Positions 54,881 to 63,379 of a stretch of 64,000 nt of DNA are shown piece after piece. The stretch spans positions 682,001-746,000 of the forward strand of contig NZ_OZ034915.1 in assembly GCF_964030655.1 (NCBI RefSeq). Reading direction: 5' to 3'. Both the position numbers and the translations under genes were made by a program. This DNA comes from Spiroplasma endosymbiont of Poecilobothrus nobilitatus. Lineage in GTDB: Bacteria; Bacillota_I; Bacilli_A; Mycoplasmatales; Mycoplasmataceae. Under the pieces are notes generated by a model. That model was not told the DNA's origin and did not search any database. It was given only the letters and a program-made list of their open reading frames with translations. Every line of letters begins with the position of its first letter. Position 1 is the first letter of the stretch.

Positions 54881-55819
54881 ATGACTAGTTTAATTAAAAC
54901 GAATGTAATCATTATTGTTGTTTGTATTATTCTAGGAATTTTTTTGTGTTGTTATTTTTTTCTACGTTGTTATCGTCTTTTAAGCAAGAAAACAAAACGA
55001 GGAGAAATTCAATTACCTGAATATATCGAACATAAAAACTTTATTACTTCTGATCAATATGAATTATCAACATTAGTAACAATTGATAAAGCTGGTCAGG
55101 ATATTATTTTAGCAGTTCATGATTTATACGGCAGTAAGGAAAATTTTGCTGGTTTAATTAATAATGAAATATGAGCTAATCATAAAGTTTCAGTAATTGC
55201 TTTTAATCAACGCAATGTCGTAGATAATGTGCCAACTAGTATTAAAAATGTTGGAGTTTTAGTGAATGATATTATTGACGTAATTACAGCTTTAAAAAAT
55301 AAATATGAACAACAAAGAATTGTTTTATTATTAGAAGGATTTTCATGTGGTTTAATTAATTTGTTATTGAAACAAAAACAATTAATTGAAAAAGTTATTT
55401 TTGTTAATCCAATTACAAATTTAAATGGAATAAGATTTTCAATGATTAGTAAAATTGGGATTGGATTTGGTTTTTTATTTAATTTAAACAAAACTCTTAA
55501 AATTCATATTGATTATCAACTTTTAAGTCAAAATAAAGACTATAGTACTTTAATGATGGAAAAAGAACAAACTTATTTTTTAAATCAAATTTTACAATTC
55601 AATTATCTTAATAAAAAGATAGTAAAACAAATTAATAATATTAAAGTAAAAACTTTAATATTACAAGCAGAGGCTGATAAATTTTATGATGCAAAACAAG
55701 TAACTTTAATTAATAATGGACTAGTTAAAATAAAAAAAATTGAGACAGCAAAACATTACTTATTCACTAATCAAAATATTAGTGCTGAAATTATTACCGA
55801 AATAATTAATTTAAATTAA
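54881..55819 (+). CDS. Membrane-anchored alpha/beta hydrolase
   Basis: 312 aa. One N-terminal membrane helix (residues about 8-30), then an alpha/beta hydrolase-like domain with the nucleophile elbow 'GFSCG' (GxSxG) and a late His in 'TAKHYLF'. 'ILQAEADKFYD' supplies the usual Asp strand. Likely lipase/esterase or peptidase-like; substrate unknown. Last gene of the ftsY-ylxM-ymdB run. Confidence 0.75.
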
Positions 55820-55870
55820 AATTAACTAATTTTTAAGTTATAATATATTTGTTGTCAAGTAACAACATAA

Positions 55871-55987
55871 AACTTATTCAGAAGTGGTTAGTACGCTAAG
55901 CAATGATCCACTAGCAACCCTATATTTAACTAGAAGGTGCTTTTAGCAGGGCAAAATGATATGCTACCAATAAGATTTATTAGTTAT
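55871..55987 (+). promoter_or_regulatory. SAM-I-type riboswitch aptamer upstream of metK
   Basis: P1: AACTTATT (55871-55878) with AATAAG-TT (from 55979). P2: AGTGG (55883-55887) with CCACT (55908-55912), containing a TTAG/CTAA inner stem and an ATGA bend like the SAM-I kink-turn. Then GCAACC (55914-55919), the P3 strand GGTGC (55936-55940) and P4 TAGCA (55944-55948)/TGCTA (55972-55976). This four-stem order with GCAACC and GGTGC fits SAM-I. Found by eye; no covariance check. Confidence 0.7.
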
Positions 55988-56036
55988 TAAATAGAACTTA
56001 ACTATTAATTTATATGTAAACATATTGTTATTAATG

Positions 56037-56062
56037 CCACATTATTCTGATGTGGTTTTATT
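56037..56062 (+). terminator. Regulated terminator before metK
   Basis: Stem CCACAT (56037-56042) / ATGTGG (56050-56055), followed by TTTTATTT. It lies 20 bp before the metK ATG and is the natural expression platform of the aptamer: SAM binding would favour termination. Confidence 0.7.
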
Positions 56063-56083
56063 TATGATTAAGGAGAAGAAAAG

Positions 56084-57235
56084 ATGGGAAAAGAGCGAAT
56101 TTTATTTACATCAGAATCAGTATCAGAAGGACACCCTGATAAGATTTGTGATCAAATTTCAGATGCTGTTTTAGATGCATGCTTAAAAGAAGACCCTTTA
56201 TCACGGGTAGCATGTGAATGCTTTATTACAACCAACCGGGTTATTATTGGCGGTGAGATTACTACAAAAGCAAAAGTTGATTATGTTAATGTGGCGCGTA
56301 AGGTGTTAAAAGAAATTGGTTATAATGATGCAGAATGAGGAATTGATTGACAAACTTGTGAAGTTGAAATATTAGTTAAAACACAATCACCAGATATTTC
56401 TCTTGGCGTTGATAAAGCTGGAGCTGGTGATCAAGGAATCATGTTTGGTTATGCAACAAATGAATCAGATAATTATATGCCGTTAGCAATTTCTATTGCT
56501 CATGCTTTAGTAAAGCGAGCAAGTATGCTACGTAAAAAAGGAATGTTTATTGGGGCACGACCAGATATGAAATCACAAGTAACATTAGACTTAACTAATG
56601 TTAAACATATTTATATTGATACAATCTTAATGTCAATTCAGCATGATGAAGATATTGATGAAGCTAAATTTAAACATTTTGTTATTACGGGAATTATGGA
56701 ACCAGTTGTGCAAGAATTTAAAATGAATTTAGATTTTAAAGTTTTAATTAATCCAACTGGTCGATTTGTAATTGGTGGACCAAAAGGTGATGCTGGGTTA
56801 GCGGGGCGAAAAATTATTGTTGATACATATGGTGGCTATGCACGGCATGGCGGTGGTGCTTTTTCGGGAAAAGATGGAACAAAAGTTGATCGTTCAGCAG
56901 CATATATGGCCCGTTATGTTGCAAAGAATATTGTTGCGGCAGGATTAAGTGAACGATGTGAGATTCAATTATCTTATGCGATTGGAGTTGCTGAACCAAT
57001 TTCAATTTTTGTTGAAACATTTGGAACTAATTTTGTTGCAAATGATATTATATTAAAGGCGATTAAAGAAAATTTTGATTTTCGTCCCCAAGGAATGATT
57101 GAAACATTAGATTTACAAAAACCAATTTATCAACAAACGGCAACTTATGGGCATTTTGGTCGTTACCACACTGAACTACCATGAGAAAAATTAGATAAAG
57201 TTCAAAGTTTAATAAAATATTTACCAGTTGTTTAA
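56084..57235 (+). CDS. metK: S-adenosylmethionine synthetase
   Basis: 383 aa. '[20 protein letters not shown]', '[16 protein letters not shown]', 'GGAFSGKD' and '[18 protein letters not shown]' are family hallmarks. TGA-coded Trp at 56336. ATG after AAGGAGAAG. Controlled by the leader just upstream. Confidence 0.98.
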
Positions 57236-57278: not shown

Positions 57279-58100
57279 ATGAAGTATAAGTTAATTGCTC
57301 TTGATTTGGATGGTACAACAGCAAGTAGAAATCGAATTTCAAAGCAAAATGTTGCAGCAATTAAGTGGGCATTGGCAAAAGGGATTAAAGTGATTATTGC
57401 AACTGGGCGTAGTATTGGTGCAATTAGAAAAGTTGCAAAAAAATTAGGCATTATTGAAAATAAAATGCCAGTAATTGGTTTTAATGGTGGCATAATTTAT
57501 GATTTTGCGAAAGAAAAAATTATTCAACAAAATGTTTTTTCTAATGATGAATTAATCAATGTTTTTTATCTTGCTAATGAGTGTAAAATTCAATTATGAG
57601 CATATTCAGTTAAGAATGAACATTTTGCTTATGTTAATACTAAGCATAGTTTGATGACTAAATGAATGAGTTTTCACACAAAACGAAAAATAATATTAGT
57701 GCATGATCCTACTACTTTATATGACCAATCTTACAAGTTTGTTGTTAGTGGTAAAAAAGAGAATGTTCTAAAATTTAAAGCAAAACTTTTAGTAAAATAT
57801 GAATTTAATATTTTTGATTGGTCATATTTGCCAAGCCAAAGTTTAAATTTAGAAATTAGTCCAAAGGGTAGTGACAAAAAAGATGCCTTAGAATATCTTG
57901 CTAAAATATATAATATTCAACCAGCAGAAGTGATTGCAATGGGTGATGGTTCAAATGATTATGAAATGTTAAAATGAGCTGGCGTTGGAATTGCGATGGG
58001 AAATGCTAAAGCGGATATTAAAACTATTTCTGATGATACAACTGCCCATTATCGTCGCTCAGGAGTAGCAAAAGCAATTAATAAATATTTTAAAAAATAA
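57279..58100 (+). CDS. HAD-superfamily phosphatase (Cof type), third copy
   Basis: 273 aa. 'LDLDGTTA' (Asp9, Asp11), 'IATGRS', 'AMGDGSNDYEML'. Related to the two at 41.7-43.4 kb but more distant. Followed by a terminator. Confidence 0.88.
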
Positions 58101-58133
58101 AAAATATCATCAAAACTATTGATATTTTTTTTG
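58101..58133 (+). terminator. Terminator after the third HAD gene
   Basis: Stem AAAATATCA / TGATATTTT followed by a T run. Confidence 0.85.
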
Positions 58134-58215
58134 TTTTTTTTATAATTAATGTGGTCGTAATTTAAAAACAAAAAGTTTAATATAACTAAACAAAATTACC
58201 AAAGGAGGGTTGTCT

Positions 58216-59835: not shown

Positions 59836-60807
59836 ATGATGGAAAACAAAAATATTTATGCAAAAAAAGGTAAAGGATGATTTAAAAAACAAGGTAGTAA
59901 AATTAAATCAATTAGTCAACATTTTGCCGCTTGATGCCGAACAAAATATTTAAACATTTCTTATCATGCAAAACAAAACAAATGGTTTAAAAGAGGACTC
60001 AATCCAATTTTATGGCCACACCTTATTATTATGATTTTATTAATTGTTGTACCATTATTAATTATTTTATTATATTCTTTTATCCAACCAACGGGAAATA
60101 GTTTAGTTTTTGAAATTAATTTTAAAAATTTTGTAACTTTTTTTTCAGAGCAAAAATTTGTTATTGCATTATTCTTAGCTTTAGGATATTCATTAATTGC
60201 GGCCTTAATTGCAATTGTGATTGCTTATCCAGTTGCTTATGTGATGGCATTTTGTAAATCAAAACTATTGTCAAAAAATATTTGAATTTTAGTAACCTTA
60301 CCAATTTGAATTAATATGTTACTAAAAATTATTGGATTACAAACAATGTTTAATATTATTGCTCCAAGTTTACTTGGAACACCAATTTCGGTTGTTATTG
60401 GAATGGTGTATGCATTTTTACCATTTGTAATTTTACCAATTTATAATAGTTTAGATAAAATTGATACATCATTAATTGAAGCTTCAAAAGATTTGGGAGC
60501 AAATGGTTTTAAAACATTTTGAAAAGTTATTTTTCGTCAATCAATCCCAGGAATTATTGCAGGTGGAACATTATTATTAGTGCAAGCAGCAACTTCGTTA
60601 ATTATTGTTAAATTTATGGGAAATGGTCGAATTAATTTAATTGTTGATGTAATTGAAGCATATTTCTTTAAAGGAGAAAACTTTGGAATTGGCGCAGCAA
60701 TCTCAGTTGTCTTATCCCTTATTGTTTTTTTAATTATTGTGCTATCAAATTCATTATCAAAATATTTTGAAACAAGAAAGGGGCGTCGCAATGAAAAAGT
60801 TTTTTAA
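59836..60807 (+). CDS. potB: Spermidine/putrescine permease PotB
   Basis: 323 aa. ATG 59836 (or the ATG 3 bases later) after AAGGAGC. A basic N-terminal extension of about 55 residues precedes six membrane helices; the EAA loop '[19 protein letters not shown]' contacts PotA. Overlaps potCD by 17 bp. Confidence 0.93.
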
Positions 60808-63379
60808 ATCATCTTATATGGCATTAATTATGTTATTTATTTATATTCCAATTATGATTTTAATTTTATTTTCATTTAATAGTGGTGAAAGTATGAGTAT
60901 TTTTAATGATTTTTCTGATCGTTGGTATAAACAACTTGCTAGTGAGAAACCTTTTTTACAAAGTATTATTGTGTCAGTTTTTGCAGCAGTAATTGCAACT
61001 GTCGTGTCAGTTATTATTGGCACTTTAGCTGCAATTGGATTAAGTCGAGCACGGCTAGTTACACAAAAAATGACATTATCAATTACTAATATTCCATTAA
61101 TTAACGCTGATATTATTACAGCTGTTTCGTTGATGATGTTATTTATTGCTTTAGGAGCAAATTTTGGAATGTTAACATTAGTTTTAGCACATATTTCATT
61201 TGATGTTCCATATGTAATTATTACAGTATTACCACGCTTACGGAAAGTTGATCCAAAATTAATTGAAGCTTCACTAGATTTAGGCGCAAAGCCCTCACAA
61301 ACTTTGCGAAAAATTATTTTACCAATTTTAAAACCATCAATTGCTGCAGCTGCAGCAATTGCTTTTGCAATTAGTTTTGATGACTTTATTATTTCTTATT
61401 TTACTGGTGGTGACGATGTCAATGTTGCAACTTTTATTTATACAATGAAAAGAATTAAACCTTTTATTAATGCTTTTGGTACCATTTGTATTGCAATTAT
61501 TGGGGTTATTATTATTGGATGAAATGGGTGAAATGTTTATAAAATTAATTATAATAAATTTCGCCGAGAAATGTTAAAAGGAACTTATAAAGATAAAGAT
61601 ATTATGCGCTATGAAAAGAAATTAGCTTTCCTTTATCATCAATTAAATAATAAAAAAATTAATAATGAAAAACAAAAAGAACAATTACGTTGAAAAATTG
61701 TTAAACTAGAAAAAAAATATGATAAAAGTGTTTTATGAATTAAGAATAAAAAACAAACTTTTATTGAACGGCAAGAAACTAAAGAAAATATTAATAAAAT
61801 ATCACGGAAAAAATTCCGCTGATTGGCAAAAAGTTGAAAGCCATTATCATTAGCAACGATTTCAGTTGGTTCAATTGCTTTGCTAACAGCAGTTTATATT
61901 AAAAATAATATTTATGATTTAGCAGTAGCAAATTGAGGCGAATATATTACTTCAGATTTAATTGGCAAGTTTGAAAAAAAATATAATGTAAAAGTTAAAT
62001 ATAGTGTTTATGATAGTAATGAAACATTATATAACAAATTATATACGACACATTATGACGTGATGGTTCCAAGTGACTATATGGTTAATAAGTTAGCACA
62101 AGAAGGACGTTTAGAAGAAAATGATTATCAAAAATTAAATGATGTTGATAAAAATTTCAACATTATTAAACCTAATCTAAATTATCATGGACAAGATGTC
62201 AAAGAACGAACAATTGGGAATGAATATTTTAATTATTTAAATGTTGATGTAGCAACAGTACAAAAAACAAATCCAGAATTTTATCAAAATTGTATTGTTC
62301 CTTCTACTTTGGATCCAACAACAGCAAAATGTTTTGATAAAAATTATGCGGCATCATTAGCTGATGGATTATTAAATGTTTTAAATAAAAATAAACTGAA
62401 AGATGTTACTCAAAAAACAATTGTTAATTATAGTTTACCTTATTTTTGAGGAGAAGTATCACTTGTGATTAATCCAACAGAAAGTAACTTAAAATTTTTA
62501 GATGAGATGTTTGCTAAAACAAATCAAAATTTACCAACAACAGCTCAAGGCAAATTTGGTTATCAACGCGCAGAGTGAGAACCTAGTATAAAACGCGATC
62601 AAATTAAACTTAATGATGTTGAAAATAATAAGGTTATATCAAATGGAATTTCATGAGATATTTTATGACAAGCAGCCGCAGCAAATAAACGAGTTTTAAT
62701 TAATAATGATCAACGAAATTTATTTATGTTAACTACTGAAAAAAATTATTTCAAACCAGCACCAACAATGCAAATGGAAGTTGATCATGGTTACAACGAA
62801 TTAGCAACATTACTAAAACATAATAATGTTGCCTTAATGAATGATGAGTTAATCAATGCAGTTGGTGATGGACGTTTTGATTTTGCTTTTATGTATAATG
62901 GTGATGCAATTTATGCTGATACATTATTTGCTAAGAGTCATGAAAAAGCGAGGGGAACAAAATTAATTATTACCCGCCCACGAGCAACAAAGGCGTGAAC
63001 ACCAGAAACAGTTGAAGGAACTAACATTTGAAGTGAAAATATGGTTTTATCAAAAAATGCTAGAAATCAGGAGTTAGCTTATAAATTTATGAATTTTATT
63101 ATTCAAAATTCATCAGCATTAACAGAAGAAGCTAATTATACTTCACCATATCAACAAGTAATGGATTATGAAAATAATTATAATTATTATAGTAATGGTC
63201 ATAATCAAGAATCTGGCGCAATGATTAATTATCAACATGATTATGTTCCTGCGGCGAAACTTAATGAGAAGGGAATGTATGTTGCTCAACCAGAAATGGC
63301 CGATAGACCATTTGAAATAACTGATTTAGATGGTTATATATTAAATAAATATAATATTTTAATTGCTGGGAAAAACTAA
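60791..63379 (+). CDS. potCD: PotCD fusion: permease plus substrate-binding protein
   Basis: One frame of 862 aa with many TGA-coded Trp. Residues 1-255: PotC permease with the EAA loop 'EASLDLGAKPSQTLRKIILP'. Residues about 265-350: basic coiled-coil linker. About 353-371: an extra membrane helix ('LATISVGSIALLTAVYI'). About 375-862: PotD-like binding domain ('VANWGEYI', 'YDVMVPSDYMV', 'FMYNGDAIYAD'). The fusion keeps the binding protein tethered at the outer face of a cell without a wall; it is known from mollicutes. Confidence 0.93.

Follow-up and report, generated by a model that had tools for sequence, protein, structure and literature searches.

A SAM-I aptamer in a Spiroplasma metK leader and a probable divergent SAM riboswitch branch in mycoplasmas

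The metK leader in the window (the whole 64-kb stretch of DNA that was analysed) carries a SAM-I riboswitch that very probably acts as an off switch through transcription termination in this Spiroplasma. We also consider it likely that this element is the canonical end of an order-wide metK riboswitch lineage, one branch of which, in family f7 (Metamycoplasmataceae), would be a SAM riboswitch variant not yet described. On this reading the variant combines a SAM-I scaffold (P4, P2 internal loop and pseudoknot) with a SAM-I/IV-type core (C43-G59), has no standard 8-86 pair, exerts feedback on metK in the majority of these near-minimal mycoplasmas and goes unflagged by Rfam; another branch, belonging to family f3, would have lost P4. 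The window element itself is an additional example of a known riboswitch class, ordinary in kind.

A sequence-only reading of the stretch had proposed a SAM-I-like riboswitch and named an Rfam covariance search as a check. Run over both strands of the 64-kb window with 4227 families, this search returned RF00162 (SAM, S box leader) at 55871–55976 on the + strand with E 5e-7 and 45.0 bits, against a gathering score of 44.4. All 108 model positions are aligned by the 106-nt aptamer, and the proposal is borne out by this full-length match, whose score exceeds the gathering score by 0.6 bits only. In a 341-nt scan around the aptamer, from which one overlapping, lower-scoring match of a clan was dropped, RF00162 was the sole SAM-clan match kept, and in the 1.43-Mb genome the aptamer is the sole RF00162 match at E ≤0.1. 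A mollicute SAM-I model, which had this same element among its training sequences, scores it at 107 bits. The folding energy of the metK leader is ordinary (z −0.81). The gene 3′ of the aptamer, metK, is methionine/SAM-related, as is expected of SAM-I members. At the level of sequence, 55871–55976 is confirmed as a SAM-I (S-box) aptamer. A suggestion that it might be a compact variant was abandoned because the entire RF00162 model aligns to the 106 nt; there is nothing unusual in the form of P2a (5 bp) or P3, and only P4 is short. The four stems, ATGA bend, GCAACC and GGTGC named in that reading all lie in the order and places given there, and the parts of the aptamer are as follows.

55871–55976 (+), SAM-I riboswitch aptamer, RF00162 match over model positions 1–108
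55871–55878 (+), P1 5′ strand, with A6 = 55876 and U7 = 55877 (RF00162 alignment)
55879–55882 (+), J1/2 (CAGA), with G11 = 55881 (RF00162 alignment)
55883–55912 (+), P2, its internal loop a candidate kink-turn (alignment)
55883–55887/55908–55912 (+), P2a, fully paired (100%) across the 21 distinct SAM-I sequences from mollicutes, with double changes in 4 of 5 pairs
55895–55899 (+), pseudoknot strand in the P2 loop, GCUAA (folding and covariation)
55902–55906 (+), AATGA (sequence)
55914–55919 (+), GCAACC (sequence)
55914–55940 (+), P3, with SAM-contact positions C44 = 55915, A45 = 55916, U57 = 55938 and G58 = 55939 (RF00162 alignment)
55936–55940 (+), GGTGC (sequence)
55943–55947 (+), pseudoknot strand in J3/4, UUAGC (folding and covariation)
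55950–55965 (+), short P4, GGCA/UGCU, 55950–55953/55962–55965 (alignment and covariation)
55969–55976 (+), P1 3′ strand, with A87 = 55970 and U88 = 55971 (RF00162 alignment)

The numbering of the SAM contacts, which we take to be that of the solved SAM-I structure, the Thermoanaerobacter tengcongensis aptamer, was transferred via RF00162 model positions. On this numbering A6, U7, G11, C44, A45, U57, G58, A87 and U88 are all canonical and are identical in 14 of 14 rows from the genus. The P2 internal loop contains UUAG and AAUGA and may form a kink-turn.

Among 60 related genomes, of which 57 contain metK, 21 gave an RF00162 match at E ≤0.1, 11 of those above the gathering score. Twenty of the matches sit just upstream of metK; the other (G024, locus L021) falls by eye inside a coding frame and was excluded from the metK-leader count. 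We then inspected the metK leaders of the 37 genomes having metK without a true RF00162 match. Further SAM-I elements were found in four, all below the gathering score (G004, 39.0 bits; G010, 39.3; G025, 36.6; G029, 29.9), and an altered form, in which GCCAACC (CCAACC in f10) and AAGGTGG replace GCAACC and GGTGC, in another four (three from f7 and one from f10), while 29 show neither motif pair. Since G004 and G010 belong to the same genus as the window host and 12 other genomes of that genus were found by RF00162, the switch lies upstream of metK in each of the 14 genus members that were examined, whereas it is missing from many of their relatives in the order.

Covariation was assessed on 24 mollicute SAM-I aptamers (21 distinct). 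Across P1, P2a, P3, P4 and the pseudoknot (28 pairs) 90.5% of cells are paired, with changes on both sides in 13 of the 28 pairs, found in P1, P2, P3, P4 and the pseudoknot. The covariation score was 0.237 versus a shuffled mean of 0.124, with 0 of 500 shuffles as high, and it fell to ≤0.138 when the partner strands were slid; the number of pair types was not above shuffles (314 of 500 as high). Pairing is weakest in the pseudoknot, at 73.5% of cells, and 4 of its 5 pairs have double changes. Within the genus the aptamer helices are 98.8–100% kept in the 14 members and the spacer diverges; the aptamer is thus nearly invariant there, and the genus set yields conservation but little covariation. 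A model built from the mollicute SAM-I set (R2) also matched the window at 60353–60452 (−) with 24.5 bits, antisense within a potB-like gene and with distal P3 and P4 aligning poorly, and this candidate for a second aptamer was set down to chance, as were additional R2 matches in G008 (L164, L165) that resemble coding sequence.

The surroundings of the aptamer include the following features.

55816–55844 (+), probable promoter, TTAAAA, 17 nt, TATAAT (10 of 12 consensus positions matched)
55851–55866 (+), small hairpin (GUUGU/ACAAC) on the 5′ side of the aptamer; over the 14 genus leaders 98.6% of its cells pair
55950–56038 (+), predicted antiterminator, 55950–55986 pairing with 55999–56038 (folding)
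56036–56063 (+), predicted intrinsic terminator, 9-bp stem 56036–56056, then UUUAUUU (terminator scan and genus alignment)
56070–56076 (+), Shine-Dalgarno-like AAGGAGA (sequence)
56084–57235 (+), metK, S-adenosylmethionine synthetase, 383 aa, genetic code 4 (ORF and Pfam)

Promoter-like sites were no commoner in the scan than in shuffles; the TATAAT of the probable promoter stands at the same place in 13 of 14 genus rows as cut for alignment. The 5′ hairpin lies near the likely metK transcript start and shows almost no sequence variation in the genus. The assignment of the downstream gene to metK agrees with the S-AdoMet synthetase domains PF00438, PF02772 and PF02773, all present in its product. 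A mollicute host, also proposed earlier, fits the three TGA codons in metK, read as Trp. It also fits a match, at 88.8–90.1% identity, between 9% of the window's last 24 kb and three plasmid records from a Spiroplasma endosymbiont, which points to Spiroplasma as the host. A terminator-like hairpin is likewise present ahead of metK as had been claimed, with 27 nt between its end at 56056 and the ATG; the U tract after it is interrupted (UUUUAUUUAU from 56056). Because about 1.0 such hairpin is expected by chance in the 2 kb scanned and one was found, its identification as a terminator rests on position and conservation. It recurs in 12 of 14 genus rows; G004 and G010 differ in sequence there, and the double changes counted for the terminator helix stem partly from rows that are not truly aligned. 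By eye, a hairpin with a T run lies between aptamer and metK in genus leaders and in several other SAM-I leaders.

Folding of 55851–56062 gave −41.3 kcal/mol for the fold constrained to contain aptamer and terminator and −41.2 kcal/mol for the unconstrained optimum, which has neither P1 nor the terminator. As the aptamer-plus-terminator and antiterminated folds are isoenergetic, SAM most likely turns metK off by termination; SAM as the ligand, the direction of control and the antiterminator are inferred. The predicted antiterminator would sequester P4, J4/1 and the 3′ strand of P1, together with the 3 nt that open the 5′ arm of the terminator. In the folding model the probability of P1 is 0.99 when the RNA ends at 55980, 0.61 at 56035 and 0.04 at 56045, at which length the spacer and the three bases that begin the terminator arm are paired with the aptamer 3′ half; the course is non-monotonic, with 0.58 at 56056 and then 0.004 at 56062, the full length, at which the terminator has a probability of about 0.01 in the ligand-free ensemble. 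The antiterminator pairs are 90.8% paired in 14 genus leaders. Their covariation exceeds that of shuffles only slightly (26 of 500 as high), and individual pairs are missing in up to 5 of 14 rows. An alternative antiterminator from the unconstrained fold, in which the P2 5′ strand pairs with the terminator arm, was set aside in favor of the P4/P1 version, its second half not being kept in L029–L031; both pairings occur together in the full-length optimum. At low SAM, then, the aptamer 3′ half (P4, J4/1 and P1 3′ strand) would pair with the spacer and the terminator base, blocking the terminator so that metK is transcribed. At high SAM the ligand would lock P1–P4 and set the spacer free, whereupon the hairpin at 56036–56056 could form and transcription would end before metK. 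By analogy with the usual S-box logic, a SAM-stabilized P1 would favor the terminated state.

Some of these observations could also be accommodated if translation or RNA stability were the main target of the aptamer and the hairpin were incidental: the U tract is interrupted, antiterminator covariation is modest and the number of terminators found equals the chance expectation. We regard this as unlikely, given that the Shine-Dalgarno-like site lies outside both predicted structures and that a hairpin with a T run recurs by eye in the genus and in several other SAM-I leaders. The RF00162 score barely above threshold and the weak P4 might instead point to a decayed riboswitch that no longer responds. 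Decay would hardly leave the ligand-pocket residues invariant in the genus and the helices kept in its 14 members despite a diverging spacer, which makes this reading very improbable.

The gene neighborhood bears on a further alternative, that a SAM-I-shaped aptamer has changed its ligand, for example to spermidine. As far as the accessible text of the source goes, spermidine riboswitches are SAM-I variants altered in J1/2 and the P3 internal loop, and one of them derives from a metK leader (PMC10853860); in the window, polyamine-transporter-like genes begin about 1.5 kb past the end of metK. The contact residues of the window element are nonetheless canonical and genus-invariant, and the transporter genes are preceded by signals of their own:

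58100–58129, hairpin rich in AU and bearing a long T run, located after the HAD phosphatase gene and ahead of the regulator gene (by eye)
58119–58146, promoter-like TTGATA-16-TATAAT (promoter scan)

The hairpin does not appear in the terminator scan, for which it is too poor in G+C. Because this hairpin and promoter-like site precede them, the transporter genes are probably a separate unit, and control of the pot-like operon by the metK switch is thought unlikely. A change of ligand thus seems extremely improbable to us, and the preferred reading remains SAM-dependent termination ahead of metK. Separately, a single 880-aa frame at 60737–63379, which comes after the ABC ATPase, permease and HTH-cupin regulator genes, fuses permease and solute-binding domains (PotC- and PotD-like).

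The altered leader form proved widespread in f7, where metK is present in 119 of 119 genomes and the GCCAACC/AAGGTGG pattern in 26 of 30 metK loci fetched. These 26 loci and two more f7 leaders were aligned (28 rows, 27 distinct; the f10 leader was excluded). RNAalifold, supplied with no structure, returned P1, P2a, P2b, P3 and P4; of the 22 pairs in this fold, 13 show double changes. With the pseudoknot included (25 pairs), 93.2% of cells are paired and 16 pairs show double changes (7 of 500 shuffles as high), and covariation is 0.498 versus 0.196 in shuffles (0 of 500 as high) and ≤0.095 with slid strands. A6, U7, G11, C44, A45, U57, G58, A87 and U88 are constant in all 28 rows. Every row has C at position 43 and G at 59, so that the G-C pair is flipped to C-G; position 86 is also C throughout, and position 8 is A in 23 rows, U in 4 and C in 1.

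A model built from the 28 rows (R1; training members are counted in the f7 totals) matched 77 of 119 f7 genomes in 7 of 14 genera (loci L106–L149 and L075–L104); 42 of the 119 gave no R1 match under stricter filters. Of 79 matches, 77 end 34–106 nt before the metK match, one per genome, and the remaining two (G048, G059) do not precede metK. In a sample of the order R1 matched 45 of 198 genomes and R2 41 of 198, the latter all in f1, f9 and f3. In a sample of the class R1 matched 59 of 395 genomes, 19 of them f7; the 40 others are weak (28.6–49.3 bits), and with the weakest f7 match at 51.9 bits R1 alone does not sharply separate f7 from them. Rfam models respond poorly to these leaders: in 20 f7 loci RF00162 found nothing at E 10, RF01725 matched 11 of the 20 below its gathering score (best 35.6 versus 41.1 bits), and five other f7 elements (L061, L064, L065, L150, L151) gave no SAM-family match at E 5, so that 0 of 25 f7 elements put to Rfam reach a SAM-family threshold. 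Since R2 matches 9 of the 20 f7 loci at the aptamer (E ≤0.015) and R1 matches 21 of 24 SAM-I loci there (E ≤0.2), the two sets appear to be divergent relatives. On the basis of covariation, position and model searches, the f7 leader is a divergent SAM-I-shaped RNA.

An exact-pattern scan gave five matches, three of them f7-type leaders upstream of metK in Mycoplasma enhydrae, Metamycoplasma auris and Mycoplasma simbae; the other two are unrelated. The Metamycoplasma auris leader equals that of G087 over 200 nt, which ties f7 to Metamycoplasmataceae; NCBI taxonomy places Mycoplasma enhydrae and Mycoplasma simbae in Mycoplasmataceae. Among the matches listed in a search of openly accessible literature, there was no description of the f7 mycoplasma variant or of a SAM riboswitch in Spiroplasma. 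Two f7 loci also hold second aptamer copies (L150:2696–2793 and L151:2682–2779, − strand), and after each copy comes a hairpin with a T run. The copies face the end of an opposite-strand gene, and on their own strand the stretch read contains no subsequent frame of 60 aa or more. In f7 leaders such as L163, L115 and L130, a GGAG resembling a Shine-Dalgarno site is often part of the 3′ arm of the pre-metK hairpin, and a T run and the ATG come after it. A crude count with visible misses placed this pattern in 10 of 43 f7 leaders (44 tried, one without a core match). With GGAG in the 3′ arm, one hairpin could block both transcription and translation.

Genus g45 of family f3 provides five elements (L154, L155, L156, L157, L166) that by eye have no room for P4. 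The 43-59 pair is C-G in two (both G234) and G-C in three (G244, G255, G259), which suggests a switch of the pair inside a single genus. metK lies downstream of four of the five elements; the L155 element precedes a 130-aa frame instead. Three of four g45 elements scanned pass RF00162, and the f3 branch is therefore partly known to Rfam.

Mycoplasmas have few regulators and are used as minimal-cell models. Taken alone, the window adds another mollicute gene with a metabolite switch and helps annotation. The mycoplasma branch below Rfam thresholds matters more and may be less expected by specialists: if the reading is correct, SAM feedback on metK would be common in mycoplasmas yet lie below the thresholds of standard RNA libraries, and a SAM-I core would be seen swapping a strongly conserved base pair beside the ligand pocket. 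The f7 variant is directly testable with short synthetic RNAs.

Like SAM-I riboswitches (RF00162), the window element has P1–P4, a pseudoknot between the P2 loop and J3/4, a canonical pocket, metK downstream and a terminator-like hairpin; unlike typical members it is A+U-rich with a P4 of only 4 bp, and the first base of J1/2 is C versus a weakly conserved A in the RF00162 consensus. With the spermidine riboswitch, so far as the accessible text describes it, it shares the overall SAM-I fold and, as a prediction for the window, an off switch by termination; unlike there, the J1/2 and P3 internal loop changes are absent and the contact residues canonical (PMC10853860). SAM-I/IV (RF01725), of the same Rfam clan, has the pocket core in common with the window element, which differs in that it possesses P4 and G43-C59 and obtains its best score from RF00162. 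The f7 leaders share the C-G form of 43-59 with the RF01725 consensus line, so the flip is not new in itself, but they keep P4, the P2 internal loop and the pseudoknot, unlike SAM-I/IV, which in the accessible text of its source is without the P2 internal loop (PMC2864571).
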